NCBI GenBank assembly: GCA_003168375.1
Contig: PMSI01000003.1
Coordinates: 372,001 to 436,000, forward strand
Length of the DNA: 64,000 nt
Direction of reading: 5' to 3'
DNA from: Vulcanimicrobiota bacterium
Lineage (GTDB): Bacteria > Vulcanimicrobiota > Vulcanimicrobiia > Vulcanimicrobiales > Vulcanimicrobiaceae
Shown here: piece by piece, positions 31,344-63,392 of the stretch
How positions within the stretch are numbered: position 1 is the first letter of the stretch
Layout of the letters: the number at the start of each line of letters is the position of its first letter
Notes under the pieces: generated by a model
The model's input: only the letters and a program-made list of their open reading frames with translations
The model's database searches: none
What the model was told of the DNA's origin: nothing
Position numbers and translations under genes: made by a program

Positions 31344-31348
31344 AGGGA

Positions 31349-33877: not shown

Positions 33878-33990
33878 CGCCGTGATGATGGCTTAGCTTG
33901 TGGAGCGTGGCTCCTGCCGGGAGGGCGCGGCGGTCTCGATGAGTCGTCGCTCGGCGGGCCACGCCTCGTGGTTAGCCTTCACGATCCGCT

Positions 33991-34995: not shown

Positions 34996-35154
34996 GGTAA
35001 CTTCGTATCACAAAGTATCGGTGACCGCAAGCCATCCTTAGCGAGGATGATGACGATCGGTACGGCCGTCGGCGGATGGAGGCGGAGGGTGTCAATAACT
35101 ACGGCACATGGCGGAGCCGGACATGTCGCATCGAATAGATCTCGCACTGGTTCG

Positions 35155-40900: not shown

Positions 40901-41025
40901 CCGCGATTTCGCTCACCGCGTGCCCGTCTGCCAGGAGTATGGGAGTTCGGTGGAGGTGGAGCGGGCGCGGCCCCGACCACCCGACACTGGCGTTTCATTT
41001 GCGAGTGCTGGCTTATGGGTGCCCT

Positions 41026-41296
41026 GTGCTTTGTGAATCGGGTTTGGCTGCTGGAGATGCGCGCGTCGCTTGCCCGCGACGGCGAGCGGTTCGCTCGCGC
41101 ATGCGGTCGATGCTGCGCTGGACGCGCGCGCGGCCTCAGCGGCGGCGCGCGGGGGTCTCGATCGTCAGAGACGACGCGCCGGCACTGCGCGTCGCGATCG
41201 ATGCCGACGGGCTGACGCTCGTCCTCGTCAATCTCATCCGTGAAGCACGGTCGCCCGGGCGGAGGAGTCTTCATCGGCATTCGTATGGACGACTCG
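41026..41296 (+). pseudogene. HATPase_c repeat copy G (frameshifted, 3'-truncated)
   Basis: Starts at the conserved GTGCTTTGTGAATCGG (41026), followed by an extra G that shifts the frame at the sixth codon. The N-box has lost nine bases (CTCATCcgtgaag instead of LIDNAVK), and similarity ends at ~41296 in GGGVFIGIRMDDSS. The whole ATP lid and G2 box are missing. The TIR-like gene starts 33 bases later, so its arrival may have removed the 3' half. Confidence 0.8.
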
Positions 41297-41328
41297 AGCG
41301 AATTGTGTACATTTGGCATCCCGAAGAG

Positions 41329-43126: not shown

Positions 43127-43259
43127 CACAATCGATCCCGAAAGAGGCTGCGGTCCCGGTGAGGCTAGCAAGCTGACGCCGTCAGGCGAAGGTACGCCTG
43201 TGCCGGATCTCGCGGGCGGGGTTGCTAGCTCGATGTCAAACTAGACATGTCACGGACCG

Positions 43260-43757
43260 GTGCTTTGTGAATCGGTTTGGCTGCTCGACATGCGCGCCTC
43301 GCTACCCGCGCCGGCGAGCGGGTCGCTCGCGCATGCCGTCGACGCGGCGCTCGACGCGTGTGCGGCCGCGGCGGCAGCGTGGGGCGTCTCGATCGTCCGC
43401 GACGACGTCCCGGCGCTGCGCGTCGCAATCGACGCCGACCGGCTCACCCTCGTCCTGGTGAACCTGATCGACAACGCCGTCAAGCACGGCCGGCCGGGCG
43501 GCGGCGTGTTCGTCGGCGTCCACGTCGGCGACTCTCGCTTCGTGCAGCTCACGGTCGACGACGACGGTCCGGGGATCGCGTCCGCCGACCGCGAGCGCGT
43601 CTTCGCGTTCGGCGACCGCGGCGACACGGAGGCCAAGGGTACCGGGATCGGCCTCGCGCTCGTGCGGCTCATGATCGAACGCGCCGGCGGACGCGTCGAT
43701 CTCGAGACCTCGCCGCTCGGCGGCGCCCGCTTTGTGCTCGGGATTCCGCGCGCCTAA
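43260..43757 (+). CDS. HATPase_c repeat copy H (intact, 165 aa)
   Basis: Complete copy: VLCESVWLLDMRASLPAPAS to VLGIPRA and TAA. Motifs intact (LVNLIDNAVKHGRPGGG, DDDGPGIA, VFAFGDRGDTEA, GTGIGLALVRLM). Its last 17 bases before the final codons, GTGCTCGGGATTCCGCG (43734-43750), recur exactly at 44550-44566, on the far side of the DoxX/truncated-gene segment. Confidence 0.88.
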   Translation: MLCESVWLLDMRASLPAPASGSLAHAVDAALDACAAAAAAWGVSIVRDDVPALRVAIDADRLTLVLVNLIDNAVKHGRPGGGVFVGVHVGDSRFVQLTVDDDGPGIASADRERVFAFGDRGDTEAKGTGIGLALVRLMIERAGGRVDLETSPLGGARFVLGIPRA

Positions 43758-44062
43758 CCCACCAGGACGAGGCGGCCGCCGTTCGTCGTCAGGATGACCA
43801 GCAGCATCGAGATCAGCATGAGGTCGTACGACCAGCCGGGGCCATCTTTAGCAGAAGCCGGTTTTCCAGACGAAGACCTTCTCTTGAATCGCCGAGCACG
43901 ATAAGGATCAAGCCGATCGCGGCCAACTGTTGGGAAAGGCCCACGACCACGGCGACTCCGCCGGCGAGCTCCGCTACTGCCAGCACGGGAGGTGTTGCTA
44001 CTCGCGAAACTGTCTGCGCATCGTCGAGCGCTCCACCGAGGCGAACGAGCTCGCCAGCGAGG
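43754..44062 (-). pseudogene. DoxX-family C-terminal relic (copy 2)
   Basis: Minus-strand fragments read PPVLAVAELAGGVAVVVGLS, QQLAAIGLILIVLG and, after a small frameshift, WSYDLMLISMLLVILTTNGG ending LVLVG and TAG at 43756-43754. This is the last two-helix part of a DoxX-type inner-membrane protein. Its stop overlaps the TAA of copy H on the other strand. The N-terminal half is missing. Confidence 0.65.
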
Positions 44063-44547
44063 TCATTGCTTTGACGCGGGACCGCGTACTGAAAGCCGCG
44101 TGGCGGAGGCGACAATGGCTTCGGAGATGGCCTCGATTGACGCGACCACAACATCCACGAGCGCATCCCAAGCCGAACGCGGGTCGGGACGATCGTACCG
44201 GATGCCGGCCTTCTTGAGCGCGGCCTCGATGTCGGCACTCAGCGTATGCGCGCTCGTGACGCGCAACTCGCTCAGCAGGCGCAGCGACCCCGTGAGGGTC
44301 CGTACCTCGTCCTCGGGCAGGCCGACGACGTCGTCCAGAACACGACGGAGAAGTCCCAGCGATTTCTCGTCCTTGTCGAACTCGATGCGGGCGGCCCCCA
44401 GGGCGGCGCGAAGCGAACGCACGTTGAGCGGCTCCACGAGCGTTTCGTAGAGGGCCTTCGCCAGCGCCGGAATCTCGCCGAACTGTCCAGTCACCGGGCC
44501 GACGCTCATGCGCCGGCGATCCCGCTCCTGAGCCTTTTCTTCGTCAG
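44063..44547 (-). pseudogene. Truncated duplicate of the 589-residue gene's C-terminus
   Basis: Closely matches the last ~150-165 codons of 14254-16023 (SVGPVTGQFGEIPALAKALY, DKDEKSLGLLRRVLDDVVGL, YDRPDPRSAWDALVDVVVAS), including the stop. The match runs to about 44547, where it meets the HATPase 3' scrap. An internal ATG (44509) could still start a 148-residue protein, but the N-terminal domain is gone. Confidence 0.75.
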
Positions 44548-44549
44548 GC

Positions 44550-44573
44550 GTGCTCGGGATTCCGCGGGTCTAG
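44550..44573 (+). repeat. Orphan 3' scrap of the HATPase repeat
   Basis: GTGCTCGGGATTCCGCG followed by GGTCTAG encodes VLGIPRV and a stop, the exact end of a HATPase repeat gene, with nothing of the gene before it. The first 17 bases are identical to the end of copy H, 816 bases to the left. It closes the duplicated DoxX segment. Confidence 0.7.
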
Positions 44574-44753
44574 GCTTGCCGTTTGACTTTCATTGCAGAT
44601 CCGTACGTTAACGTTAATGGAAGGATAGCCGAGGCGGCGTTTCCAGACTTCAAAGATGCCGTGGCGGCCCTCCTCCCTACGTCCTAGCCTACTCGCGTGG
44701 AAAGCCGCGATAGGCGTCAGCTGCAAGGCGTCGAAACTCGTACGGCGACGGCG

Positions 44754-45240
44754 GTGCTTTGTGAAGCGGTTTGACTTTTTAGATCTCACTGGCGATGCCG
44801 CGCCCGCGATCGGATCACTCTCGCATGCCATCAGAGCCGCGTACGACGCGTGTACCGCAATTGCGGCGGCGCGGACGGTCGGGATTGTCCTCGATGACGT
44901 TCCGAACCTGGAGATCGCGATCGCCACCGACCGCCTTGCGCTGGTCCTCGTCAACCTGATCGATAACGCCGTCAAGCACGGCCGGCCCGGGGGCGGCGTC
45001 GACGTCGCCGACGACCGCTGCGTGCGCATCAGCGTCGACGACGACGGACCGGGTATTTGCCGCCGCCGACCGCGAGCGCATCTTTGCGCTCGGCGAACGC
45101 GCCACGACCGCGCCGAACGGCAGCGGTATCGGCCCTCGCGTTGATGCGGCTGATTCTCGAGCGCACGGGCGGGCGCGTCGAGCTCGTCAGACTCGCCACT
45201 CAGAGGTGCACGTTTTTCGATTACCGTACCGCGGGTTTGA
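44754..45240 (+). pseudogene. HATPase_c repeat copy I (stops and frameshifts)
   Basis: Starts GTGCTTTGTGAAGCGG (44754); the seventh codon is TGA and other frames are needed for the rest. LVNLIDNAVKHGRPGGG is intact, a 'VFVG' codon stretch is deleted before DVADDRCVRISVDDDGPG, and at least two later single-base shifts occur around 45055 and 45130. It ends ITVPRV-like with TGA at 45238-45240. It belongs with copies B and C. Confidence 0.8.
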
Positions 45241-45386
45241 GTCGCGGGCCGCAACTGGCGGCACCGCCAGCACGGCGGTTGGCAAGCAGCCGCTTGTAGT
45301 CTTGGTTTGCTTCACCCTACCCCAATGCTATTATTATGGCTCGGTGCAATCATGACCGAATAGGACAGTGGCGGAGGCAGTGGGGT

Positions 45387-46367
45387 GTGACGTTTGTATG
45401 GCGTACCGCGCGGTCGGTTGACCTGGCGCAATGCTTGGAGATCGCCGCCGACCGTTTCCTGTACGACGAGCGCTCGCTGGTCGCGCTCAAGGCGATGTGG
45501 TCTGAGGTTCTCGTTCGCGACATCGGGCGGGCTAGCGTCGTGGTGATGGACTGCGCGCGAGAGCGCATTCTCGGATTCGGGATCAGTGCGTTCGTCTCTC
45601 CGGCGTTGTTCGGATCGATCATTGGAGACGGCGAACCGTTCGTAACGCGCCAGTTGCTAGAACGCTGGCGCATCGGCGATCCACCGTTTCTCCACGAAAC
45701 CGGGATCGCTACGGCAAATGCCACGCGCGGTGTAAACGTTTTCGTCATGAACAGCGGCGCGACGTGCACCGGCGTAGAGTGTTCGGAGGAACGGCTTTTT
45801 CAATTGCTGGCAGACGCGTTCTTTGCCCAGCACGCCGGCCTGAACATCAGCGGGCTTGCGCACGAGTGCTTCGGCTCGTTTCACGAGAGCTGCAGCGAGC
45901 TTGGGATGCGGACGCGATTCTACGCGCATGACGCGACGCGAGTGCAAAGCATACCCGGCGACAGGCGCCCCTGCATCTCGTGGATGACGCGCGAGGAAGC
46001 GCTGCGCCCTCCTCGCTGCGCGGTCGATCAGGTCTTCACGCTCGCGACGAAACCACAACTCAATCTTGACGCAGGCGTACGTCGGGTGCTGCGGTTAGCG
46101 CTCGAAGGCGAGTCCGATGAGTACATCGCGGACGCTGTGGAGCTTTCCGTTGCAACAATCAAAAAACGATGGCTCCAAATATACGAGACATTCCGCTCCA
46201 GCACCGGACTCGTAGCGTACCAATGGCCCAAGGACCGTACGCTCGGCGACGGTCGAGGACCCGAGATGCGCCGGCACGTTCTCCGCTATATCCGCGAACA
46301 TCCCGAAGAACTCCACGCATGCGAGCTCCCATCAGGCAAGTCGCCCATTAGGAGTTACAGTGGGTGA
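45387..46367 (+). CDS. LuxR-type helix-turn-helix regulator
   Basis: A promoter (TTGCTT 45307-45312, 16 bases, TATTAT 45329-45334) would start transcription after the ATG at 45336, so I choose GTG 45387, which has GGAGG nine bases upstream (326 aa). The N-terminal ~220 residues look like an acyltransferase-type or ligand-binding fold. Residues ~240-290 (VRRVLRLALEGESDEYIADA, VELSVATIKKRWLQIYETF) form a LuxR/GerE-like helix-turn-helix. It overlaps the 2OG-fold gene by eight bases and probably controls the cluster. Confidence 0.7.
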   Translation: MTFVWRTARSVDLAQCLEIAADRFLYDERSLVALKAMWSEVLVRDIGRASVVVMDCARERILGFGISAFVSPALFGSIIGDGEPFVTRQLLERWRIGDPPFLHETGIATANATRGVNVFVMNSGATCTGVECSEERLFQLLADAFFAQHAGLNISGLAHECFGSFHESCSELGMRTRFYAHDATRVQSIPGDRRPCISWMTREEALRPPRCAVDQVFTLATKPQLNLDAGVRRVLRLALEGESDEYIADAVELSVATIKKRWLQIYETFRSSTGLVAYQWPKDRTLGDGRGPEMRRHVLRYIREHPEELHACELPSGKSPIRSYSG

Positions 46368-47094
46368 GTTCGAGATCAACACCGACGTCAACCTCGACCA
46401 GCTGTGCGAGACATTTCGCAATGACCGCCGCTTGCGCATCACGGAGTTTCTCGACCCGGCAAGCGCCGAGGCGCTCTATCACTACCTTGACAAGCGGGCG
46501 GAGTGGAGCTCGTTTCTGACCGACAAGGGTCGGATGTTCGAATTGCCTCCTGAAATACGACGGAACTGCAGCGCCGGCGGAGAGCAACGTTTGATCGATC
46601 TCGCTCATGCTAGCGCGCGAGACGGAGGAGTCGCGTATATCTACGATGCAACTCGCTGTTTCGCGGGCGATGCCGTCGCGTATGTCAAAGACGAATCAAT
46701 CCTCGCGCGCTTTGCCGATTTCGTGAATTCTCCCATGTTTCTGGACTTTGTGCGCCGCGTGAGTGGCGTAGAGGAACTCGACATGGCCGATGCTCAGGCG
46801 ATGCGCTTTCGTGCGGGTAACTTCATGACGTTCCATGGCGGCACGAGCTCGCTGGAGTACACTAAAACGCAGCGTGCATTCTATTCATACCAACTGACGC
46901 CGGAATGGAAGGCGGAGTGGGGTGGTTTGCTCGAGTTCAGAGGCACTGCTGCGCGCTCCGTTGAGGCATATGTCCCATGTTTCAACTGCCTGGACATGTT
47001 TGCGTTTCCGCAGGGACACTGGGTGAGTGCCGTGTCTCCATTTGCCGGTGGGTCGACCTATTCAGTACGCGGAGGTATTTTCGCGCATCCGTGA
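46360..47094 (+). CDS. Fe(II)/2-oxoglutarate-dioxygenase-fold protein with HxG instead of HxD
   Basis: GTG 46360 with AGGAG six bases upstream; 244 residues, exactly the length of its paralogue at 49811-50545. The prolyl-hydroxylase-type core is clear (WKAEWGGLLEF, CLDMFAFPQGHWVSAVSP). The iron motif reads H159-G160-G161, so the Asp of HxD is Gly; the distal His220 is kept. The Arg that binds 2-oxoglutarate (R234 in the paralogue) is Thr233, with an Arg four residues later. Loss of the Asp is what distinguishes Fe/2OG halogenases, where chloride takes its place, but the lost Arg makes a dead or non-enzymatic protein equally possible. Confidence 0.75.
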   Translation: MGEFEINTDVNLDQLCETFRNDRRLRITEFLDPASAEALYHYLDKRAEWSSFLTDKGRMFELPPEIRRNCSAGGEQRLIDLAHASARDGGVAYIYDATRCFAGDAVAYVKDESILARFADFVNSPMFLDFVRRVSGVEELDMADAQAMRFRAGNFMTFHGGTSSLEYTKTQRAFYSYQLTPEWKAEWGGLLEFRGTAARSVEAYVPCFNCLDMFAFPQGHWVSAVSPFAGGSTYSVRGGIFAHP

Positions 47095-47130
47095 GGACTT
47101 GCGTCTCGTGACCGCGCGGCGTCACAGGGA

Positions 47131-48237
47131 ATGACCATCATGTCGGAGTCGGCTGCGGTGCTGCGCGACGCCAAGCTGGCATATCGCGACGGAGGCATTG
47201 TCGAGGCTGAGGCGCTATGCCGGCGCCTCCTGCGCAGGCATCCCACCAGTGCCGGAGCGCTGCACCTATTGGGCATGCTTCATGCTGCCCGCGGCGATGC
47301 TGCGGAGGCCGTTCGATTGTACGCGCAATCACTCGCGTACTCGCCAGAGCAGTCCGAGGTCTGGTGCGATCTGGCGACGGCGTACCAGCAGTGTGGGATG
47401 TCGACGAAGGCTATTGGCGTTTTGGTCCGGGCGATCTCGATCTACCCGCGTCGCTATCGTGCCTACGGACTGCTCGGAGCGCTGTATTATCAGCTTGGGC
47501 GCATCGGCGACGCAGCCGACCTCTACAGAGAGTGGTTTCGCAGAGATCCGACCAATGTCGAAGTTCATCACATGGTTCTGTCCACGCGAGCCGGGAGCGA
47601 TTCACCGCCGCGCTGTTCAGATGCCTTCGTGAGAGCTCATTTTGATAATTGCGCCGACGTCTTCGACGAGCGCCTGATCAAGCGCCTCGGCTACAGGGGC
47701 CATCAGATTGTCGCCGGAGCGTACAAAAGGAGCACGCCGACACTTCGAGGCGGCGTCCTGGACGCAGGGTGCGGGACCGGCCTGTGCGGGCCTTTAGTGC
47801 GCCCCTATTGCGGTCACTTGGTCGGTGTTGATCTGTCGGAGAACATGATCGAGCGCGCTCGCGCTCGAGGTGTCTACGACGAACTCATCGTTGGCGAGCT
47901 GTGCGCTTTCATGGCTTCAAGGCCGGACGCATTTGCTGCGATCATAGCGGCAGATGTTCTCATCTATTTTGGCACCCTGGAGCCGGTGATGAAAGCAGCA
48001 TACCGTGCGCTTCAGCCCGAGGGCATTCTGGCGGTTACCTTCGAGCTGCTCGCGGGTTCTGGTCCGCAATCGTATCGGCTGGAAGTCCACGGCCGATACT
48101 GCCACACAGAGGCGTACGTGAGGAATGTACTCTCCCAGGCCGGGTTCGAGTCGCTGCACATCCGGCAGGAAACAATTCGATTGGAGCTTGGCAAGGAAGC
48201 CATCGGGATCGTAGCTGTCGCCCGCAAGGTATCGTGA
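47131..48237 (+). CDS. TPR-SAM methyltransferase fusion
   Basis: 368 residues. The first ~150 are four tetratricopeptide repeats (IVEAEALCRRLLRRHPTSAG, DAAEAVRLYAQSLAYSPEQS, and others). Residues ~170-360 are a class I methyltransferase: motif I GGVLDAGCGTGLCG, acidic loop VGVDLSENMIERARA, and IIAADVLIYFG as motif II/III. Such fusions occur beside 2OG oxygenases in peptide- or protein-tailoring clusters; the substrate is unknown. Thirty-six bases separate it from the 2OG-fold gene. Confidence 0.8.
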   Translation: MTIMSESAAVLRDAKLAYRDGGIVEAEALCRRLLRRHPTSAGALHLLGMLHAARGDAAEAVRLYAQSLAYSPEQSEVWCDLATAYQQCGMSTKAIGVLVRAISIYPRRYRAYGLLGALYYQLGRIGDAADLYREWFRRDPTNVEVHHMVLSTRAGSDSPPRCSDAFVRAHFDNCADVFDERLIKRLGYRGHQIVAGAYKRSTPTLRGGVLDAGCGTGLCGPLVRPYCGHLVGVDLSENMIERARARGVYDELIVGELCAFMASRPDAFAAIIAADVLIYFGTLEPVMKAAYRALQPEGILAVTFELLAGSGPQSYRLEVHGRYCHTEAYVRNVLSQAGFESLHIRQETIRLELGKEAIGIVAVARKVS

Positions 48238-48272
48238 CGTCTCGAGCCGGGCGAGCATACGGACGAAAGCCG

Positions 48273-49829
48273 TCACCCGTCCACCGAGTCGTCCGATGGC
48301 TGTGCAAACGCCTCGTCCCGGCCCTGCCGAATGAATTCATAAACCCGCTCGGCGCAACGTTGCAATTGATCCTCATGCGTCAGGACCAGCGCATTTGCCA
48401 CGCGTATCGGATCACCTCGGGAAAACCGCTCGTATAGCACCTGCCGCGATGCAAACGCGGACACCGAGGCGTCCCAGGCTAGACGAAACATGGGAATACG
48501 ATCAAAAGCTTCAGCCCGAGCGGCCTGATAGAACTTCTTGATGTCTTCTGCAAGCGGTCCCCTAACGTCAGCTTCCGTTGGCATCGCGACGAGGCCGCTG
48601 GCGCCGATCTGCTGAATGATCTCGACCATACGGGGATACATGCGAGAGAAAAGAATGCATGCTGCAACCAAGGGATCCTCGGCCGGTCGCATGATTTGCC
48701 ATTCATCGAGCGCCGCGTCGGCTTCGGCCGCACGCAGGCACGCTTTCATTGTCTCTGCGTTGAGCCACAGCTCAGCCAGTTTCTCATAAATGTGCTGAAA
48801 CACCTCAGCTCCGATGCTGTTCACCAGGAGCGAAGCGAGGCCCAGCATGAACTCGGCCTTGACGATGTTCTTTACAACAGTCTGGTGGTCCATGTGCACC
48901 GCGGCGCCGGTACGACTGAAGGCGCTGTTGCACCGCGGTACGTCATGAGAGACGAATATATTCTCCCACGGCACCAGAACATCGTCGAAGATTACTACTG
49001 CATCAAGCTCTTCAAACCGCGAGGCCAGAGGATGGTCGTAGTGGGAGCGACCGTAGTCGACGCTCTCTCGGCATATGAATCTGATTCCCTGTGTGTCACT
49101 TGGAATCGAGAACACGAACGCATACGGGGCTTCCTGCTCGGGGTTGCGGAGCGGTGCGCCGGAATACACCAAGAGTTCATCAGCGATCGGAAGAGTAGCT
49201 AACATTCGGCAGCCGCGGACAATGAGCCCGGCATTCGTTTCCTCCTTGATGCGCGCGGCGAGAAAAGGATCGGCCTGATTCGCGACCGACGCCGCACGGT
49301 TAGCCTGCGGGGAACTCAGCGTTGCAGTCATACAGAGATCGTGTTCGCGTAGATACTCGTACCGCCGCAGTGCGTTCGCTCCAAATCGCGAGTCTGCTTC
49401 GGAAAAGTACGCAGCGCCTGCCGCTAACCCCATTGCGCCCCTGTTGAGATAGGTCGGCAGGCGCCCCATCATGCCGTGAGTGTGTTCTTCCCAGATGCGC
49501 ATCGCATCGCTGACGACCCGAAGATCTTCTAGTGTTCGGGGCATCATGAACGACCGACCGACTTTATGGCCGGACGTTGGGGAGTCGTAGAGGGTGACGT
49601 CAGGCCTCTCCCACTGCACGTCGTATAGGCGGGCCAACGTGTGTACGACGCCCCTGAAGGCCGGATGCGTTGTGACATCCGTAACGAGCTCACCGCGATG
49701 CCAAATACAGCGGGGATGCTCGCGGAGCCGCCGTAGGAAGTCTTGTCCCTGGCGCGCGCCACTCGATGCGGCATCAGTTCGCGCAGCCTTGCGAGTCGTG
49801 CCTATTGTGTTTATTCGCCGTGAAGCCAA
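48273..49829 (-). CDS. HpaB-family FADH2-dependent monooxygenase
   Basis: 518 residues, the normal size for 4-hydroxyphenylacetate 3-hydroxylase-type oxygenases. Family features include DFLRRLREHPRCIWHRGELV at the N-terminus, the acyl-CoA-dehydrogenase-like middle (TNAGLIVRGCRMLATLPIAD, AVVIFDDVLVPWENIFVSHD) and the helical C-terminus (SGLVAMPTEADVRGPLAEDI). HpaB enzymes hydroxylate phenols using FADH2 from a separate reductase (HpaC), which is absent here. Its start overlaps the 3' end of the 2OG-oxygenase gene by 19 bases, so the two are co-expressed. Substrate unknown; a tyrosine-like residue on a peptide or carrier is possible. Confidence 0.85.
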   Translation of the reverse strand: MASRRINTIGTTRKAARTDAASSGARQGQDFLRRLREHPRCIWHRGELVTDVTTHPAFRGVVHTLARLYDVQWERPDVTLYDSPTSGHKVGRSFMMPRTLEDLRVVSDAMRIWEEHTHGMMGRLPTYLNRGAMGLAAGAAYFSEADSRFGANALRRYEYLREHDLCMTATLSSPQANRAASVANQADPFLAARIKEETNAGLIVRGCRMLATLPIADELLVYSGAPLRNPEQEAPYAFVFSIPSDTQGIRFICRESVDYGRSHYDHPLASRFEELDAVVIFDDVLVPWENIFVSHDVPRCNSAFSRTGAAVHMDHQTVVKNIVKAEFMLGLASLLVNSIGAEVFQHIYEKLAELWLNAETMKACLRAAEADAALDEWQIMRPAEDPLVAACILFSRMYPRMVEIIQQIGASGLVAMPTEADVRGPLAEDIKKFYQAARAEAFDRIPMFRLAWDASVSAFASRQVLYERFSRGDPIRVANALVLTHEDQLQRCAERVYEFIRQGRDEAFAQPSDDSVDG

Positions 49830-50545
49830 CCCGAGATTGCCAGGCGCGGTCCGCCGGCGGATGGCGAGACGCAGCTTACTGCGTGAGCCATCGGTACCTG
49901 GAAGATATTGAGCGAGTTGAACCGAGGAACATAGGCCTCAGCGATATGTCCAGTTGAACTCATGAATTCGAGTAGGCCGCCCCACTCGGGTCTCCATTCT
50001 CGAGTGAGATTAATGACGTACGCGATGCGCCTGCTTCCTGTACACGAGTCGTCGTGGAACGCGAGAAAGTGTCCCTCGCGAAAGCGAGTAGCTGTTGCTT
50101 CCACCCATTCAATGTCGCCGGCAGCGGTGAGGCGGCGGACAAAGTCTATGAAGGACGGCGAGTTCAGAAAGGCGCCGAACGTCTTGAGCAGACCGTCAGG
50201 TTGGGCGCGCTGCAGCGCACCGTCGTCTCGGCGCGTGGTGAGCCTATTGGTCTCATACAGAAAGGCGTACCCCTCACGGCCGGCCGAATGCGCAAGTTCA
50301 GCCAGTGCGCGGTCTTGCTCCGGGCTATACAGACTGCGCTTCTCGGGAGGAACTTCCCAGAGATGGTTGCGGCTGAATAAAAAGTAGCTCCACTCGACTT
50401 CTTGCAGAAGATGGTGGTGCAATGCCTCGGCGCCTTCAGGGTCGAGAAAGTCTGGTATGTGCAATCGTCCGGCTGTACGAAACGCAGAACGTAGCGTATC
50501 CGGGTCGAGATCGGAATTGATTCGAAACGGTATTGTCAGGTTCAT
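49811..50545 (-). CDS. Fe(II)/2-oxoglutarate-dependent dioxygenase with complete metal triad
   Basis: 244 residues. Iron ligands H164-x-D166 (LAFHDDSCT) and H221 (PMAHAVSCVSP), and R234 for the 2-oxoglutarate carboxylate (GGPRLAISGWLH), are all present, so this is probably an active prolyl-4-hydroxylase-type oxygenase. It shares overall length and the REWRPEWGGLLEF core with the HxG protein at 46360, so the two are paralogues that have diverged. It lies between the 65-residue peptide gene and the HpaB gene on the minus strand. Confidence 0.85.
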   Translation of the reverse strand: MNLTIPFRINSDLDPDTLRSAFRTAGRLHIPDFLDPEGAEALHHHLLQEVEWSYFLFSRNHLWEVPPEKRSLYSPEQDRALAELAHSAGREGYAFLYETNRLTTRRDDGALQRAQPDGLLKTFGAFLNSPSFIDFVRRLTAAGDIEWVEATATRFREGHFLAFHDDSCTGSRRIAYVINLTREWRPEWGGLLEFMSSTGHIAEAYVPRFNSLNIFQVPMAHAVSCVSPSAGGPRLAISGWLHGE

Positions 50546-50674
50546 TTCGGGGCCTGCCGTTGTGACGAGTGTTCGTGTTTGTGACGCTCGAGAACACGAT
50601 GAGGCAAAGCTTCGCTTACGCGACTCGGCTGCAGCCCTGTCCGTTCCAGAAATGCTCGGTGGTCGGAACGACCG

Positions 50675-50872
50675 CTACTCGGTCTGCTTACGAACCCGTA
50701 CCAGAATCTCGAACTTCCCGGTAGAGATCGTAAGCGCCGTATCTTGTGAGACTTGACCGAGATCGACGAGGTGAAGCTCTGGGCTACCGACCGTCTCTTT
50801 TGCTGGCCTTGCAGGATCGTACCCTTGGCCGCTTGCTCGCTTCTGGGAAGGATCGTTCCGCTCGTTACCCAT
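50675..50872 (-). CDS. Small peptide gene heading the oxygenase operon (65 aa)
   Basis: ATG 50872 has GAGGA seven bases upstream. MGNERNDPSQKRASGQGYDP is hydrophilic and probably disordered; the C-terminal third (LTISTGKFEILVRVRKQTE) is beta-prone and basic. It is followed, 129 bases downstream on the same strand, by the active 2OG oxygenase and the HpaB monooxygenase. By position it could be a peptide substrate or a regulator. It has no Cys and no known leader motif, so a RiPP precursor is only a possibility. Confidence 0.5.
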   Translation of the reverse strand: MGNERNDPSQKRASGQGYDPARPAKETVGSPELHLVDLGQVSQDTALTISTGKFEILVRVRKQTE

Positions 50873-51368
50873 GGCCGAATCCTCATCTTCCTATCGCTTG
50901 AGTAGGGTAGGCGCTGTGCAAGGGCAGCGCGTGCTCCGGCGCGCAGCGGGCCGTCACGCAAGTACTGCGCCGCGCGAATAGCCGACGACTGCACACTCTC
51001 GAACGCCGGTACTTCTCGCTTGCTTGCCCCTCTTCCAATCCTATGATGGGGCCCCTGTGCAAATCAATGACCTAATAGGATATTGCGTATGCATAGGAGG
51101 GCGACGATCAGCCCGAAATCGTGCGCGGCAGCTACGACGGGCTCCTGGCATGCGGAACGTCTTTGTTCAGCGAGGATAAAGGGGCAAGGTCTCACGGCGG
51201 GGGGCGAGGGTACGATTCCTTTAGTCCGGAGGGTCCTCTTGCCGCCGACCTCGTGGTGCTCTAGAGCGTTTTCGTTTTAGACCGCTGCTCGGCTTGAGCA
51301 TCGGCTGGCAGCGGGATGTCGCTCGAGGCGGCATTCGGTAGGCGTCGAATAAACTAGGTGTATCGCCG
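50873..51368. other. Gene-free stretch between the peptide gene and copy J
   Basis: About 500 bases in which I find no convincing gene. It contains AGGAGGG at about 51096-51102, which is not followed by a useful start codon. The upstream control region of the minus-strand oxygenase operon must be here, but no clear promoter was found. Confidence 0.4.
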
Positions 51369-51866
51369 GTGCTTTATGAATCGGTTTGGCTCTTGGATAT
51401 GCGTGATGCAGAGGCGTTGCCCACGATGGGCTCGCTCGAACTCGCGCTGGCGGCCGCACGAGACGCGTGTGCGGCGTCTGCTGCTTCACGTGGGGTCGGA
51501 ATCGAGATAGCCGACATTCAGTCGATCCAGATCGGCCTCGACACAGATCGGCTGACGCTCGTGCTTGTCAATCTGATCGACAACGCGGTGAAGCATGGGC
51601 GCCCGGGTGGTGGTGTATTCGTCACCGTCGACGCAAGTGACCGCCGCATGGCGCGCGTGATCGTCGACGACGACGGGCCGGGGATCGCCGATGCCGACAG
51701 CCAGCGCGTTTTCGCGCTCGGCAAACGTGCTTCGACGACTGCCGATGGGAGCGGAATTGGACTCGCGCTCGTGCGACTGCTCGTCGAGCGCGCCGGTGGG
51801 CGCGTCGACGTATCCGCTTCGCCGCTCGGCGGCGCGCGCTTTGTTATCACCATGTCGCAGTTGTGA
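51369..51866 (+). CDS. HATPase_c repeat copy J (intact, most divergent)
   Basis: GTG 51369, VLYESVWLLDMRDAEALPTM, to ITMSQL and TGA. The start motif has drifted (GTGCTTTATGAATCGG) and the end is SQL instead of PR[VA]. Catalytic motifs stay intact: LVNLIDNAVKHGRPGGG, DDDGPGIADAD, VFALGKRASTTADGSGIGL, which is midway between the two subgroups. Intact motifs in such a diverged copy argue for selection on the protein. Confidence 0.88.
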   Translation: MLYESVWLLDMRDAEALPTMGSLELALAAARDACAASAASRGVGIEIADIQSIQIGLDTDRLTLVLVNLIDNAVKHGRPGGGVFVTVDASDRRMARVIVDDDGPGIADADSQRVFALGKRASTTADGSGIGLALVRLLVERAGGRVDVSASPLGGARFVITMSQL

Positions 51867-52235
51867 CCCGCAGGCTCCGTAGGGCAGCCGAAGAAGTCGC
51901 GCTACCTAGGGCATCGCCGTGGACCTTTCCAGCTATGCGGTGCTCGCCCTTGCGGCAGGGTGGCGTCAGGTTCTGCCGCGGCCTCACGAACGCCTCAGAC
52001 GAATTCTGCTGGTGACCGCGCGCCACGGTTTGCGCTCGTTCCTCAAGCGGAACACGCGACGGATACTCTTGCCCTGTTCATGGCCTCTAGATTGTGGAGC
52101 GTAGCTTTTGTCCTTGATGCCCAGGCCCTTCGTCAGCCCAGCTGAAAAGGGACTACTACCGACGATTGGGGCTTTGTTGACTAACCTCGTAGCGTGATGT
52201 ATCCTGTCGTGGCTTAGTCAAGAAGCGAGGGTGGG
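51867..52235. other. Gene-free stretch containing the copy-A/E/J shared flank
   Basis: No supported gene. At 52091-52140 TTGTGGAGCGTAGCTTTTG and CTTGATGCCC-AGGCCCTTCG match the segment downstream of copy A (3572-3617) and partly that of copy E (33900-33917). The conserved stretch is about 50 bases and lies 225 bases from the end of copy J. Confidence 0.5.
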
Positions 52236-53357
52236 GTGTTAAAGCGTATCGCGGGCGTCGTCACGGCGCTGTCTTTCGTGCTGCTCGCCGGGTGCGGCGG
52301 AGCATCGTCGCCGCAACCTTCGGCGCCGCGCGTCGTGCCCACCGCTCAGCCCTCGTCGTCGTCTACGTCCGAGCGGCCGTTCACGTCGCCGCGCAGCGAT
52401 GGGTGGAGCGTGCAAACCGACGGCCCGACGTTCTATTTCGGACCGACAATCGGGATGCGTTTGAAGGGCACGCTGCAAACGGGGACATTTCAATTCCGGT
52501 CCGACGGCAAGGTGATTTCCGTCAGCGCATCGCGCGTGCGAAGCATCGCTCGCGTCGTGAACGGGACCGCGCACCTGCTGTCGTTCGCGCGCTTCAAGCC
52601 ATCGGCCGCTACGACGACGCGCTCGGCAGGAAAACGGCCGCAGTACTACGTTGACACTATCTGCACTCAGCCGATCGGCCGCAGCTTCGAGGACGATCAG
52701 TGGAATTATCTGTGCTATTGTCCCGACGGAAGCATCGCTGATCTAGGCGGGATCTGCTTCTACTGGGTCGACGATCCCATTTACTACTATTATCCGCCGC
52801 CGTCGTACACTTACGCGAACAATCCCGAAGTCCCGGACGATCCCGACGGTCCAGGGCACGGCCCGCAACCCGACATGACGCTTCCGGAAAGTCAAGCGTG
52901 TCCTAACGGCTACAGCTTGTCGTACAGCAACGGCGACGGCGGCAATCCGGCGGGCGGCGCATATTGCGGTCTAGAACCGTTCGTAGGCGATCCGGGCCAA
53001 GTCGCGAGCCTTTCGGAGGTGAACCTGTTGACGTTCTCCACCAGCCACTACTGGAACAGGCACCTTGGATGCTACGTGCACAACACGTACGCGAGCCAGC
53101 AGTGGAATGACCAGATCTTTCTCGATTTTCTGCCGCACCCGGACAAGCCAACCGTGCTGAAAATATCTACCGAATATACTGGTCTCATCCCACCGACAGT
53201 CATGGATACTATCGGCGTGCCGACGCAGTGGGCCTACAGAGTCGCCCTGATTGAGAGCACCCCAGGAGTGTTGGTAACGACGAACCTTTACAACGTTGGG
53301 ACGTCGTTCTTGACGCCGCGACGGATCGACTGTCCGAAATCGCCGACGTACCCCTAG
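52236..53357 (+). CDS. Lipoprotein of unknown function (373 aa)
   Basis: GTG 52236 after GAGGGTGG. Signal MLKRIAGVVTALSFVLLAGC with lipobox LLAGC (Cys20), then a Ser/Pro/Thr-rich linker (~25-50) and a beta-rich domain. Unusual tracts include WVDDPIYYYYPPPSYTYANN and EVPDDPDGPGHGPQPD, likely flexible. Several cysteines (CTQP, CYCPDG, CFYW, CGLEP, CYVH, CPKS) could form disulfides. No catalytic motif recognised; likely a surface or periplasmic structural protein. Confidence 0.7.
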   Translation: MLKRIAGVVTALSFVLLAGCGGASSPQPSAPRVVPTAQPSSSSTSERPFTSPRSDGWSVQTDGPTFYFGPTIGMRLKGTLQTGTFQFRSDGKVISVSASRVRSIARVVNGTAHLLSFARFKPSAATTTRSAGKRPQYYVDTICTQPIGRSFEDDQWNYLCYCPDGSIADLGGICFYWVDDPIYYYYPPPSYTYANNPEVPDDPDGPGHGPQPDMTLPESQACPNGYSLSYSNGDGGNPAGGAYCGLEPFVGDPGQVASLSEVNLLTFSTSHYWNRHLGCYVHNTYASQQWNDQIFLDFLPHPDKPTVLKISTEYTGLIPPTVMDTIGVPTQWAYRVALIESTPGVLVTTNLYNVGTSFLTPRRIDCPKSPTYP

Positions 53358-53476
53358 CGGGCGAGGGTCGGTTCGTTCTCGGCGGACAATCCGGCGCGCT
53401 GAGGAATGAAGTGTTTGCGCGAATTTATCCGGCCTCAATGGCCGACGCCGACGGAGGGACGGCTCGGGGATCGCTG

Positions 53477-53842
53477 ATGGCAGACCCAGAGTACCATACG
53501 CCGACGGCGGAAGAACTCTCGTTTCTTCGAATCGTAACGCGCGGCTATCCGGAGCTAGAAGCGCAGGTCGAGTCGTGCGAGGTTAGTGCATATGATCCAG
53601 CGGGGTACTGCGACGTTCGAGTCGGATCAGGGCCGCCTTTCAGGCGGGAACGAGTCGACGGGCCGTCGCTCGGAATCCAGGACTCCGGGCCACGATTTGT
53701 CGAAACCCTCCTGTGGATGAATGAGGATGGATTCCTCAATACTATCGAGGTGATAGAGTATCCCGATTTCATGGGAAATGTTTACGAGCGATACATCGAG
53801 TCTGCGCGCGATGCGCATCTGACATACAGGATCAGCCCCTAG
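53477..53842 (+). CDS. Small cytosolic protein of unknown function (121 aa)
   Basis: ATG 53477 with GGGGA eight bases upstream: MADPEYHTPTAEELSFLRIV. Compact alpha/beta composition without signal peptide or membrane helix; the end (EVIEYPDFMGNVYERYIESA) is well structured. It resembles small immunity- or SMI1-like proteins only in size and composition, which is not enough to name it. Confidence 0.5.
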   Translation: MADPEYHTPTAEELSFLRIVTRGYPELEAQVESCEVSAYDPAGYCDVRVGSGPPFRRERVDGPSLGIQDSGPRFVETLLWMNEDGFLNTIEVIEYPDFMGNVYERYIESARDAHLTYRISP

Positions 53843-54116
53843 CACTGCGGGTAGTGGTCCTATTTGCACCCGCGCAGTATTGACATTGGCTGACCGCAGG
53901 GCCGACCCATGAGGTATGCCTAAAGATACCAGGCGGTATCGTTGCCGAAAACAATCCAAGTTGTAAATACGCCCACACGGTTGCGCGGCCTTCAGCACCG
54001 CGTCCGTCGCCCCAGTCACAGTGTTATACGACGCGCTTTGGTACGTCGCGTGCGGGAGATCGTAAATTGATGCCGTCTCCGCTCACGGGAGAAATCCACG
54101 CGGAGAAGAATTCGCA

Positions 54117-54833
54117 TTGCCAAGCCAAGCGCGCGAGCAGGCGTCGGTTACCCGAAACGCACAATCCCTTGGGCCCCCGCCATGCCCGCCCCCACCCTCG
54201 TTCAGTACAGGTGAGTACGTCCGAGGATATCTTTGCAATTCGACTTCCAGAACGTTCACTGGAATCGTCGACGCGAGCGACGTGTGTGGCCTGCCGGGTC
54301 CATCCTGGTGCATGACCTTCAATCCGATTTACGACGATACTGGCGATATCTACGTGGGAGCCTGGTCGGGTGAATCGGTAAATGGCTCGGCGGAAGCGGG
54401 CCTTTTGTGGAGCAAGAAATACATGATATACGAGATGTTCGGCCGGGATCAGGGCGACACTGAACCCGACGGGATCCCGACATCCATGTCCTTCTTGCCG
54501 GGGGTATTCAGCGAACAGTTCGGAACCGCTGGCACCTCGCTATGGTATTTCACCGTAACCCCACTACTCGGAGCGCCGGTTACCTGGACTCATCCGGGGA
54601 GCAGCAATGTTGCTCACGGCACCTCGTGGACCTACAAACAAGCGACAAGTATCGCGCAGAACATTCTTAATCCGAGCAATGGCTCGTATTTCGGAGTGAA
54701 TTCGTTTGGCGACCCTCTCTTTGGCTGGGCGGCGACGGTCCCGCCCGGCGTACCGCTGACGGGATCCGACTTCTTCCCAGACTCGACGCGAGCACTGCAT
54801 GTGGGCGATAGCTACGGGATAAACCTCTATTGA
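54117..54833 (+). CDS. Hypothetical protein, probably exported (238 aa)
   Basis: The best frame runs from 54117, but the N-terminus (MPSQAREQASVTRNAQSLGP, PPCPPPPS) is not a typical signal, so the true start may lie elsewhere or the 5' end may be damaged. The body is Gly/Ser/Thr/aromatic-rich (GDIYVGAWSGESVNGSAEAG, WTHPGSSNVAHGTSWTYKQA) and resembles secreted proteins. It overlaps the next frame by four bases (TTGA). Confidence 0.5.
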   Translation: MPSQAREQASVTRNAQSLGPPPCPPPPSFSTGEYVRGYLCNSTSRTFTGIVDASDVCGLPGPSWCMTFNPIYDDTGDIYVGAWSGESVNGSAEAGLLWSKKYMIYEMFGRDQGDTEPDGIPTSMSFLPGVFSEQFGTAGTSLWYFTVTPLLGAPVTWTHPGSSNVAHGTSWTYKQATSIAQNILNPSNGSYFGVNSFGDPLFGWAATVPPGVPLTGSDFFPDSTRALHVGDSYGINLY

Positions 54834-55180
54834 TTGCCGCGCTTACGCTATCCGCCCTCGTCGGACGATGGCTTTGTACGTCGCCGGAGGAACCGGGAGT
54901 GCGCTTCCAATACGTGTTCGCGCCTGACCGTACCGGTAGCTTATCCGTCGTCGATGGGCGACACCACGCGACGGTGATGGGTACGTTTACTTATGCACTT
55001 AGTTCCGACGGAGAATACGTCTTGAAGAGGGCTGGCCCGTATCTCGTAAGGGATAATGTCGACATTCGCGGGCGAGTTCTTGAGGACCGCGGTTACGCTT
55101 ATTGGCATGAGGGCGGATGGACCGCACCGTCCGGCCAAAACCACTACACCTGCATTCGCAGTTTGCCGTCAGGATCGTAA
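54830..55180 (+). CDS. Small exported protein with lipocalin-like strands (116 aa)
   Basis: Begins at TTG 54830, overlapping the previous stop. A short hydrophobic start (LIAALTLSALVGRWLCTSPE) is followed by alternating strands: VRFQYVFAPDRTGSLSV, ATVMGTFTYALSSDGEYVLK, GRVLEDRGYAYWHEGGW. The pattern 'GRW-C ... Y-F--dgt' recalls lipocalin-like/META-type proteins that report turnover. One cysteine pair (C16, C110) is possible. Confidence 0.5.
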   Translation: MIAALTLSALVGRWLCTSPEEPGVRFQYVFAPDRTGSLSVVDGRHHATVMGTFTYALSSDGEYVLKRAGPYLVRDNVDIRGRVLEDRGYAYWHEGGWTAPSGQNHYTCIRSLPSGS

Positions 55181-55248
55181 GCCAGAACTGCGCCAGAAAT
55201 ACGTCGCATTCGGAGCGATGCATCGAGACCCCGCACCCATAGCACGCA

Positions 55249-55266
55249 CGGTACCGCGCGTCTGAG
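55249..55266 (+). repeat. Orphan 3' scrap of the HATPase repeat (right island edge)
   Basis: CGGTACCGCGCGTCTGAG encodes VPRV and stop as in copies B and F; GTACCGCGCGTCTGAG is identical to the end of copy B (8771-8786). The preceding bases show no repeat similarity. Beyond it the island character ends. Confidence 0.65.
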
Positions 55267-55293
55267 GCAAAAGGCCGAACCGATCCGCGCGGA

Positions 55294-55683
55294 CTACCCG
55301 CCGGGGCAGGGGCTCGGGCAAAGCTTGGCTTGGAACTGCTTCGCGACGGAGAGCGGGATGCCGTAACGCTTCACCATCATCGATGCGTAGGTGACGCCGC
55401 CATCCGTTCCCAAGAAGCGCCACGCGCCGTTCTTCAGGTGCAGCCACGCGTTACCCTCAGCATTGCCGCCGCCCGTTCCAAAGGAGCATTGCGCCCACGT
55501 CTGTACGAGGAAGCAAGAAGGCTGCTCGATATCCGTGTTTCCCACCGACCGGAAGTGCGCGACCAGCGCCGACACGGCCGCCTTCTGCGCCGGCGTCGCG
55601 GCGTAGACCGGGACCGTTGCCAACAGGGTCAGCGTCGCGATGAATGCGAGTACCTGTCTGACGAAAGACGCGCGGTTTGACAT
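55294..55683 (-). CDS. Small exported protein (129 aa)
   Basis: ATG 55683 with AGGAG seven bases upstream. Signal peptide MSNRASFVRQVLAFIATLTL, cleavage near VYAATPAQK. The mature ~100 residues contain four cysteines (PSCFLVQTWAQCSFG, KLCPSPCPGG), compatible with two disulfides, and WLHLKNGAWRFLGTDGG. Family unknown. It is divergent from the flavin monooxygenase gene. Confidence 0.65.
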   Translation of the reverse strand: MSNRASFVRQVLAFIATLTLLATVPVYAATPAQKAAVSALVAHFRSVGNTDIEQPSCFLVQTWAQCSFGTGGGNAEGNAWLHLKNGAWRFLGTDGGVTYASMMVKRYGIPLSVAKQFQAKLCPSPCPGG

Positions 55684-55815
55684 AGGGTAACTCCTGTTCT
55701 TGACCTCGTCGCCGGTTCGGGATCGCTTTGCCTTCGCCTTCGATTGACCGGCGCGCACGACCCGCGGGCGCCGTGCGCTGACGGAGGTACCGGCCGGATC
55801 GCGAAGTGACCGGCC

Positions 55816-57147
55816 TTGTCGTCTGCCGCCCTTTCCGGCTCGCCTGCCGAACGCACAGAAGATCGATTTGCCCTGGTCGGCGCCGGGCCGATCGGCCTGG
55901 CGGTCGCGCGAGCCCTGAAGCAGCACGGGGTTCCGTACGTGCAGTTCGAGCGCGCCAGCGAACTCGGCGGCAATTGGCGCGACGGGGTGTACGAGACCGC
56001 CCACATCATCTCGTCGCGGAGGACGACCGAGTTCACCGATTACCCGATGCCGGCGGACTATCCGGACTTCCCGAGCGCCGCCCAGATGCTTGCCTACCTT
56101 CAGGAATACGCGCGGCACTACGACCTCGCCCCGCAGATCGCTTTCGAGACGAGCGTGAGCGACGCGCGACCCGTCGTGCGCGGTGGCGAGGAACGCTGGG
56201 AGCTAGCATTCGGCGACGGCACGCGCGGCGTCTACAAGGGGGTGATCGCGTGCATCGGCCATCATTGGGACCGGCGCTGGCCCTCGTATCCGGGGACGTT
56301 CGCCGGCGAGCTGATGCATTCCAAGGACTACCGCACGCCGGAGCAGCTCCGCGGCAAGCGCGTGCTCACGATCGGCGGCGGCAACTCCGCCTGCGACATC
56401 GCTTCAGAAGCGGCCCGGGTCGGTGCGTCCTCGCACATCAGCAATCGGCGCGGCTACTGGTTCTTGCCCAAGACGCTGTTCGGCGTCCCGCTGGTCGAGC
56501 TCATCCGGCCCTGGATGCCGCTGTGGCTGCAGCGGATCTTCCTGCGCACGGCCCTGGCCGTTTCGGTCGGCGACTACCAGCGGTACGGCTTGCAGAAGCC
56601 GGACCACGCGATCTTCGAGCACCATCCGACGCTCAACAGCGAGCTGCTGCACTACATCAAGCACGGCCGCATCACGCCGCACCCCGACGTGGCGCGCTAC
56701 GACGGCGACTTCGTCGAGTTCGTCGACGGGAAGCGCGAGCGCTTCGACGTGATCGTCGCCGCGACCGGATTCCACCAGACGATCCCGTTCCTCTCGGCCG
56801 ACCTCGTGCCGATCGAGGGGCCGATCGTGAAGCTGTACGGTTCGATGATGAGCGATCGCTTCCGGAACATGTACGTGTTCGGCTGGTCGCAAGCACGCTA
56901 CGGCTTCGGTCCGATTGTCTCGCCCGGCGCCGACCTGCTGGCCGAGGTGATTCTGGCGCAGGCGAGGATGCGCCATCCGATCGGCGCCGTGCTGAAGAAG
57001 ATGGGCGCGAAGCTGCCCCGCACGCACCTGGTCGATCCGCACGCCGCGATCCGCCAGATCCGGCGCGCGCGCAAGCGTTTGCCGATGCTGGCGAAGATGG
57101 AGAAGGTCGTGATGCGCGACCGGCCGGCGCCCGGCACCGCTGCGTGA
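55816..57147 (+). CDS. Flavin-containing monooxygenase (FMO/Baeyer-Villiger type)
   Basis: 443 residues. FAD-binding Rossmann motif FALVGAGPIGLAVARA (~18-33), the FMO-type segment CIGHHWDRRWPSYPG, NADPH-binding motif VLTIGGGNSACDIASEA (~183-199) and an ATG-like VAATGFHQTIPF near the end. The length matches class B flavoprotein monooxygenases. The stop overlaps the dehydrogenase start (GTGA). Oxidation by this enzyme and carbonyl/alcohol interconversion by the neighbour would form a two-step pathway on a lipid or ketone substrate; which one is unknown. Confidence 0.85.
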   Translation: MSSAALSGSPAERTEDRFALVGAGPIGLAVARALKQHGVPYVQFERASELGGNWRDGVYETAHIISSRRTTEFTDYPMPADYPDFPSAAQMLAYLQEYARHYDLAPQIAFETSVSDARPVVRGGEERWELAFGDGTRGVYKGVIACIGHHWDRRWPSYPGTFAGELMHSKDYRTPEQLRGKRVLTIGGGNSACDIASEAARVGASSHISNRRGYWFLPKTLFGVPLVELIRPWMPLWLQRIFLRTALAVSVGDYQRYGLQKPDHAIFEHHPTLNSELLHYIKHGRITPHPDVARYDGDFVEFVDGKRERFDVIVAATGFHQTIPFLSADLVPIEGPIVKLYGSMMSDRFRNMYVFGWSQARYGFGPIVSPGADLLAEVILAQARMRHPIGAVLKKMGAKLPRTHLVDPHAAIRQIRRARKRLPMLAKMEKVVMRDRPAPGTAA

Positions 57148-57962
57148 AACAGCTCGCGGGTGGGGTCGCCGTCGTCACCGGCGCGGCCTCGGGGATCGGG
57201 CGCGCGGTCGCGCTCGCGCTGGCGCACGAGGGGATGAGGCTGGCGCTCGCCGACCGCGACGAGCACGGCCTGCTCGAGACGGTGGCCCTCGTTGCGGGCG
57301 CCGGCGGCGCTGCCACCGCGCACGTCGTCGACGTCGCCGACGAGGCTGCGGTGAACGCGTTCGCGCAGGACGTGCTGCGCGAGCACGGTCGTGTCAGCGT
57401 CCTGGTGAACAACGCCGGCGTCTCGATCTTCGGCACCGTTCAGGAGGTCGCGAGCGACGAGATCGCGTGGCTGATGAACGTCAACTTCTGGGGTGTCGTC
57501 TACGGCACGAAGGCGTTTCTGCCGGTCCTGCTGGCGCAGCCCGAGGCGTGCATCGTCAACGTCTCGAGCGTGTTCGGGCTGTGGGCTCCGCCAGGGCAGG
57601 CGGCCTACGCCGCCAGCAAGTTCGCCGTCCGCGGCTTCACCGAATCCTTGCGTGCCGAGCTAGAAGCGACGAACGTGCACGTCGTCACGGTGCATCCCGG
57701 CGGGATCAAGACCGCGATCGCGCGCAACGCGCGGGTCGCGCGTGCCGCCGATCCCGTGCTCGCCGCGACCCTGACGAAGACGTTCGACGAGCGGCTCTTG
57801 ACGACGCCGCCCGAGGAGATGGCGGCGGCGATCGTGCGCGGGATCAAGCAGCGCCGCGACCGCGTCGTCGCCGGCAAGGACGCGCATCGCATCGAGATGC
57901 TGATCCGGATGTTCCCGACCCGAGCGCCGCGCTGGTTCACCCGCCGCGTGCGCCGCAGCTAG
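57144..57962 (+). CDS. Short-chain dehydrogenase/reductase
   Basis: Starts at GTG 57144 inside the FMO stop (272 aa). Classical SDR motifs: TGAASGIG nucleotide-binding loop near residue 13, NNAG, catalytic Ser in NVSSVFG and Tyr-x3-Lys in YAASK, then PGGIKT. The basic C-terminus (RFPTRAPRWFTRRVRRS-like) suggests membrane association. NAD(P) preference is not decided by eye, although the Asp after the second strand (ALADRDE) favours NAD. Confidence 0.9.
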   Translation: MKQLAGGVAVVTGAASGIGRAVALALAHEGMRLALADRDEHGLLETVALVAGAGGAATAHVVDVADEAAVNAFAQDVLREHGRVSVLVNNAGVSIFGTVQEVASDEIAWLMNVNFWGVVYGTKAFLPVLLAQPEACIVNVSSVFGLWAPPGQAAYAASKFAVRGFTESLRAELEATNVHVVTVHPGGIKTAIARNARVARAADPVLAATLTKTFDERLLTTPPEEMAAAIVRGIKQRRDRVVAGKDAHRIEMLIRMFPTRAPRWFTRRVRRS

Positions 57963-57966
57963 CGCA

Positions 57967-61206: not shown

Positions 61207-61281
61207 GGGCCGCTCTTTTCGACCTCTTCGCTGTGATTGCCGCCTGGAGCCCACCGCCCGGCCGTCGAAAGGTCGGCGCCG

Positions 61282-61836
61282 ATGGAAAGCAAGCGGCTGG
61301 GGAGGCGGACGGCGGCGGTGGTGTTCGCGATCCTGGCGGCGCGGCCGCACGGTGTGATCTTCACCGAGCGCGCCGCGCATCTCCGCGACCACCCCGGCCA
61401 GATCGCGCTCCCCGGCGGGTCGGTCGATCCTGCGGACGGCGGAGACCTGCGCCGCACCGCGTTGCGCGAGCTGCGCGAGGAGGTCGGGATCGCCGCGGAA
61501 CGCGTCACGATCCTGGGCGAGCTGCCGATGGTGCAGCAGAGGCGCGCGAACAACTTCGACGTGACCCCGTTTGTGGCCACAGTCGCGCCCGGTCCGCTGA
61601 CGATCGACGGGTCCGAGACCGCCGCGGTCTTCACCATCCCGCTCGCGGTGATCATCGAGGAGCTCACGCACGGCACGGTCGCCGTCGGCGAAGTCAGCGT
61701 CGAGACGTATCTGCTCGACTACGAGAGCCGCCGCGTCTGGGGACTCACCGGGCAGATCCTGCGCAAGTTCATCGAAGCATGGAACGATCCGGTGAACCCG
61801 CTGCGTGCCGCGGTCGAAGCGACGCTGATCGCGTGA
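61282..61836 (+). CDS. Nudix hydrolase, CoA-pyrophosphatase type
   Basis: I choose ATG 61282 (MESKRLGRRTAAVVFAILAA, 184 aa); ORF extension upstream is possible. The Nudix box GGSVDPADGGDLRRTALREL REEVGI has all catalytic glutamates, and the preceding HPGQIALPGG is the signature of CoA-hydrolysing Nudix enzymes (NudL/PCD1). It probably hydrolyses CoA or acyl-CoA to phosphopantetheine and ADP. It overlaps the protease gene by GTGA and is divergent from the RND pump. Confidence 0.85.
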   Translation: MESKRLGRRTAAVVFAILAARPHGVIFTERAAHLRDHPGQIALPGGSVDPADGGDLRRTALRELREEVGIAAERVTILGELPMVQQRRANNFDVTPFVATVAPGPLTIDGSETAAVFTIPLAVIIEELTHGTVAVGEVSVETYLLDYESRRVWGLTGQILRKFIEAWNDPVNPLRAAVEATLIA

Positions 61837-63368: not shown

Positions 63369-63392
63369 TCTCGAAGGACGGGGCGGCCGTGT

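Follow-up and report, generated by a model that had tools for sequence, protein, structure and literature searches.

The question raised by this locus is how about 62 kb of DNA, consisting of some ten foreign-looking pieces, several of them with anti-phage genes, apparently came to lie within one sensor-kinase (histidine kinase, HK) gene of a Vulcanimicrobiota bacterium from soil (G000; 4.43 Mb, seven contigs). The window, that is, the whole stretch of 64,000 nucleotides that was analysed, corresponds to C6:372001-436000 of G000, and positions are counted from its first base. The comparison covered the 11 genomes of the genus set (G001, G002 and so on being the congeners), which are MAGs and in part fragmented.

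The kinase gene and its displaced 3' parts

When one copy of the repeat was used to query the entire genome, ten pieces turned up in the window region and one full-length gene outside, located just left of the window, ending at C6:365061 and lying directly behind its response regulator (an RR-HK pair). The copies correspond to the 3' third of this HK gene, and all of them are found at the same locus and in the same orientation.

2888-3380, + strand: copy A; motif (2888-2911) and displaced HK 3' part containing an internal TAG; marks the close of unit 1
8285-8785, + strand: copy B; motif (8285-8308) and displaced HK 3' part
18536-19038, + strand: copy C; motif (18536-18559) and displaced HK 3' part with frameshift/TAA
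27186-27333, + strand: copy D; 148-bp 3' fragment, a truncated displaced copy without motif
33377-33877, + strand: copy E; motif (33377-33400) and displaced HK 3' part
35152-35652, + strand: copy F; motif (35152-35175) and displaced HK 3' part
41023-41312, + strand: copy G; motif variant and frameshifted, truncated HK fragment
43257-43757, + strand: copy H; motif (43257-43280) and displaced HK 3' part
44751-45240, + strand: copy I; motif (44751-44774) and frameshifted HK 3' part
51366-51866, + strand: copy J; motif (51366-51389) and displaced HK 3' part

Nine of the ten copies open with the 24-bp motif CCGGTGCTTTGTGAATCGGTTTGG, followed by HK sequence starting at CTGCTCGAC; the truncated copy D is without it and copy G has a variant. 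The copies start at a single point between the DHp- and ATPase-coding parts of the gene, with the CTGCTCGAC core some 480 bp before the stop codon. The intact HK gene is without the motif and has GATGTTCGAGATCTCG ahead of CTGCTCGAC; the left half of the site is unlike between attB and motif, and the short core differs from copy to copy.

Pairwise identity among eight copies was found to be 0.89 in the motif, as against 0.24-0.31 directly upstream of it, which makes the boundary at the motif a sharp one; windows of 24 bp taken from the HK 3' part gave 0.73. With a motif better conserved than the HK part and unrelated sequence upstream, the cargo changes right up to the motif. These values bear on the main rival of the reading preferred below, namely homologous recombination alone, by which transformed units bearing an HK 3' part would enter through a single crossover anywhere in that part, the left edge being inherited. 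Such Campbell-type integration would likewise generate copies with one fixed left edge, but the higher conservation of the motif, next to unrelated upstream sequence, speaks against it, and it is considered unlikely.

An origin by local duplication and decay of the resident HK 3' end, with no horizontal input, would agree with the presence of all copies at one place and in one orientation. However, the copies are only 62-87% identical to each other, unrelated cargo lies between them, and the GC content of the array (61.6%) is 7 points below that of both flanks (69.1% and 68.9%). Moreover, copy B is 92% identical to the 3' part of the HK gene of G010 and less than 80% identical to everything else, so that the copies are not local duplications. 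Contradicted already by this match and by the presence of one unit in a second species (see below), the duplication scheme is scarcely credible.

The motif is known from two species only, since a search of 84,980 genomes matched a single record, G001, and a search of viral_contigs gave no match. With the HK 3' part, no match was obtained in viral contigs and only distant ones (less than 60% identity) in plasmids. As a separate observation, copy J is followed by 143 bp (51908-52050) that share 79% identity with the beginning of a gene for an 1835-aa kinase (L087:5995-6137), which in G010 sits behind HK.

Gene-end scraps, empty sites and unit boundaries

Besides the copies, short remnants of the HK gene end were located, along with the features that adjoin them.

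33402-35176, unstranded: unit E, most of which is also found directly behind HK in G001 (L078, about 7650-9033)
33918-33979, + strand: additional HATPase 3' scrap of 62 bp, inside unit E
43944-44549, - strand: truncated cargo gene copy, 89% to 14134-14740, part of the cargo gene at 14254-16056
44550-44573, + strand: scrap 1, the final 24 bases left of an HK copy
55248-55266, + strand: scrap 2, terminal bases of the native HK gene, where the array meets the chromosome on the right
55286-64000, unstranded: conserved chromosomal right flank, adjoining HK in G002 and G004

The preliminary description had reported orphan gene ends at 44550-44573 (matching the end of copy H at 43734-43750) and 55249-55266, together with D as a longer 3' fragment (27187-27333; 148 bp at 27186-27333 in the present analysis). 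All three are real, with the scrap coordinates right to within a base or two. Its concern that such matches could be due to chance was also addressed. The sequence GTGCTCGGGATTCCGCG occurs in the window at 43734 and 44550 only, with 0.04 occurrences expected at up to two mismatches. Scrap 2 (ACGGTACCGCGCGTCTGA, 55248-55265) matches the family gene end at 17 of 18 positions, which is also its best match to any single known copy or kinase end, and none of 14,736 control windows of 81 bp reached 16/18 (best, 15/18).

The homology of scrap 1 to the intact HK end (TCTAG-GCTTGCC and TCTAGTGCTTGCC) runs about 25 bp beyond the stop codon. A protein of 600 aa is encoded by the cargo gene at 14254-16056, and the truncated copy of this gene stops at 44549, where scrap 1 starts (44550); by reason of this fusion, scrap 1 is a deletion remnant. 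Loss of the first part of a displaced copy along with the end of the cargo, in one deletion, explains it, and copy D and scrap 2 may, by inference, be leftovers of the same kind. The 62-bp scrap in unit E (E = 0.018) has a counterpart in G001 (E = 1.9e-7), and more scraps of the HK end were found at C6:365181-365317 and in the congeners G001 and G010.

A single HK gene is present in nine of the 11 genomes of the genus, copies being restricted to the other two, and the empty site sought by the preliminary description was found in two congeners, each with one uninterrupted HK gene beside the same downstream gene. The downstream gene, which in G000 starts beyond scrap 2 (55286), is separated from the stop codon of the intact HK gene by about 20 bp in G002 and by about 230 bp in G004; the flank at 55286-61836 (about 6.5 kb) is 94% identical to G004. 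In G001, two displaced copies come after HK, and the latter of them stands directly ahead of the same downstream gene. Scrap 2 is therefore the remainder of the native HK end, this junction being common to the G002 and G004 empty sites and the displaced copy of G001. Downstream order varies within the genus, as another gene is found behind HK in G005, G006 and G009. In these three (L080, L081 and L088) the gene matches C6:447.8k, so that a chromosomal stretch of some 20 kb is not placed alike throughout the genus.

Of the three cargo blocks initially thought to be closed on the right by a 3' end, that from J to 55266 does end at the native junction, whereas the grouping is not right for C to D and H to 44573, the general boundary of a unit being the 24-bp motif. 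Insertion into the 3' end of the gene with its regeneration was likewise right as to the kind of event, given the congeners with an empty site (3' part replaced, old one displaced), but not as to its place. The exchange site is the mid-gene motif and CTGCTCGAC core, and not the last 20 bases of HK; the gene ends of 16-20 bp proposed as an attachment core are rather deletion leftovers of displaced copies.

The HK gene of G000 was found to be 91% identical to that of G004 before the core and 76% after it, with the drop at the core, and, conversely, 76% and 92% identical to that of G001, so that it is chimeric at the core. The G000 and G001 genes share a tract of 99-100% identity from about +37 to about +340, then fall to about 85%, where G001 turns E-like. 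This tract starts about 30 bp inside the HK part and ends before the stop codon, and its edges within the HK part indicate homologous recombination as well. The overall pattern suggests site-specific entry followed by homologous exchange between copies, which would also delete intervening units. With respect to homologous recombination alone, the tract, its internal breakpoints and the E-like tail of G001 demonstrate that such exchange occurs, but the G000/G004 breakpoint is at the core, and so is the boundary of unit E in two species.

Unit E lies at different array positions in G000 and G001, and the alignment continues to the right-hand motif and core, diverging exactly after them. In G000 it is longer because of an internal tandem duplication (34213-34574 and 34600-34967, 94.8% identical) that is absent in G001. 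Short att-like direct repeats at both ends were detected in two cases, namely CCTTTTGGAC (10 bp) in unit E of G001 and CTGCTCGACATGCGCGC in unit 1 of G000, which spans the HK core at C6:364588 to 2912; the cores of the older units vary.

Cargo and proposed assembly of the array

Profile matches identified clustered anti-phage genes in the array (Pycsar, Thoeris-like, and other TIR and STAND genes), along with units of other content.

3652-7158: unit A cargo, three genes
3652-4419, - strand: E2-like gene, unit A
4403-5989, - strand: Pycsar cyclase, unit A (E 3.7e-118)
6241-7158, + strand: cNMP-binding/TIR effector, unit A (E 1e-119)
11120-13545, + strand: unit B cargo, two ThsB-like TIR proteins and a SLOG cluster-3 protein; Thoeris-like
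19189-25677, - strand: unit C cargo, 2162-aa protein with a STAND-type NTPase domain
27838-33267, + strand: cargo after D, transglutaminase, TIR protein, MoxR-type AAA and two more ORFs
46360-50545, unstranded: unit I cargo, 2OG-Fe(II) oxygenases, TPR-methyltransferase and HpaB-type hydroxylase; not defence

The 2162-aa protein gave no PADLOC or NCBIfam match and may be an unrecognized defence protein; ten ORFs that had no assignment gave no PHROG match. In unit 1, left of the window (L028:16507-19451), an SMI1/KNR4-type protein is encoded beside a 788-aa ORF that has no Pfam match and an HNH-like C-terminus, by appearance a toxin/immunity-like pair.

In line with the preliminary description, no integrase was found in the array. 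The array gave no PF00589 or PF00239 hit, no recombinase was present among the ORFs scanned with Pfam, and none was recognized in the array or in the units of G001, an IS3-type transposase aside. Neither serine recombinases near the array, nor tRNA genes in the window, nor an excised circle or other mobile form were found.

Taken together, these data are probably best accounted for by serial site-specific insertion into HK of units that carry its 3' third, by means of a recombinase acting in trans, with loss through homologous recombination and deletion. Weighing against this reading are the lack of a recognized recombinase in the array, the unlike left halves of the site, the short and variable core, the limits of the G000/G001 tract, the occurrence of the motif in two species only, and the failure to find a circle or mobile form. 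The unit would consist of the HK 3' third (from the CTGCTCGAC core to the stop codon), the cargo and the 24-bp motif CCGGTGCTTTGTGAATCGGTTTGG, in this order. A circular or otherwise mobile unit would recombine with HK at the core, which separates the stretches coding for DHp and ATPase, so that the reading frame would be restored with the catalytic domain of the newcomer and the old 3' part pushed beyond the cargo, to follow the motif at the distal end of the unit. Repeated insertion would generate a stack, whose oldest end, on the chromosomal side, would be scrap 2, while homologous recombination between HK repeats and deletions would remove or truncate units, leaving scraps 1 and 2 and copy D. 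Action of the enzyme in trans is to be expected from unit E, which occurs in both species although it has no recognizable recombinase; the circular intermediates and the order and direction of insertion are likewise deduced.

More tentatively, and with greater doubt than confidence, the kinase gene may be viewed as a cassette platform, into which a trans-acting recombinase would insert non-autonomous anti-phage units, each bringing a new catalytic domain, so that integron-like growth would re-tune signalling. If so, the growth of the island and the re-tuning of a signalling protein would happen together. A different role for the copies, with the array storing alternative catalytic domains for swapping into the expressed kinase and the cargo being secondary, would draw on the combination of a single unvarying 5' part with some ten different 3' parts, and recombining out the DNA between two cores would leave a whole kinase whose catalytic domain is a different one. 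However, stops, frameshifts or truncation have disrupted five of the ten copies, the units carry kilobases of unrelated cargo, and only two of the 11 congeners have copies, making such storage very improbable.

Serial insertion may be compared with known systems. Gene-restoring islands and prophages (SGI1, dusA elements and e14, the last a gene-targeting element that restores its target, icd) each bring along an integrase and exchange a short terminal stretch of the gene. For SGI1, a single target gene (trmE), a new gene end supplied by the element, displacement of the old end and possible tandem copies are described (PMC2297512, PMC8409611). The array resembles SGI1/trmE, dusA elements and e14/icd in its single target gene, unit-supplied gene end and displaced old end, but differs in that the exchanged stretch amounts to about 480 bp, encoding the whole catalytic domain, that the units form a stack of about ten, and that an integrase is missing. 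Of the hallmarks of gene-targeting islands, the empty site, the target restored with element sequence, the displaced native end at the distal junction (scrap 2; the third HK copy of G001) and the short direct repeats at both ends were seen, whereas no site-specific recombinase is encoded in the array. As in integron cassette arrays, modular cargo is gathered at one platform with the integrase outside the cassettes; unlike in integrons, no intI or other integrase adjoins the platform gene, the junctions fold no better than shuffles and contain no stably folding attC-like site, and the repeat belongs to a gene. Helper-embedded PICIs are satellites using an integrase clade that targets coding genes (PMC10111431); insertion inside a coding gene and, by inference here, helper dependence are similar, but no phage or PICI genes were recognized in the array units, the PHROG comparison having covered ten unassigned ORFs. 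With defence islands and hotspots (PMC10121019, PMC10250203) the array has in common its Pycsar, Thoeris-like and other TIR/STAND cargo, but its build-up can be read unit by unit from the displaced gene ends, and some units carry other genes. No description of such an arrangement was found in the open-access literature.

The construction of defence islands is mostly inferred from gene lists, whereas here displaced kinase ends mark separate arrivals, and units, one of them common to two species, can be delimited to a few bases. Horizontal swap of a kinase catalytic domain would be a by-product of island growth, and motif and core offer a precise site for tracing the missing recombinase and mining further units.

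Recombinase genes outside the array

The search of the genome for tyrosine recombinases called for in the preliminary description yielded four, all outside the array, the nearest at C6:502953, about 138 kb from HK. One candidate helper is a tyrosine recombinase encoded behind a ribonucleotide reductase gene, whose G000 and G001 versions are 48% identical. Among 99 genomes of the family only these two have it at that level, with one more match of 31% in G021. This distribution fits the two array-bearing genomes, but the link is weak, as accessory integrases of the genus often occur in genome pairs and no motif-like site lies nearby.

Two minor observations concern recombinase genes. In G000 and G001 the ribonucleotide reductase genes (L159:66-2123 and L162:27-1691) have ends with intein-like sequence, ..NGFISHN-T and ..NGIVNHN-T, whose positions differ between the two; behind each lie genes for a tyrosine recombinase, a small HTH protein and a Cys-rich protein of about 735 aa. 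In three species, contigs (G000:C5, G001:C5 and G002:C6; L154, L155 and L156, bases 1-40) start at the palindrome-like GATAATTCTCAGTTATC or a variant of it, right behind an Xer-like recombinase gene, possibly a dif-type site at which the assemblies break.
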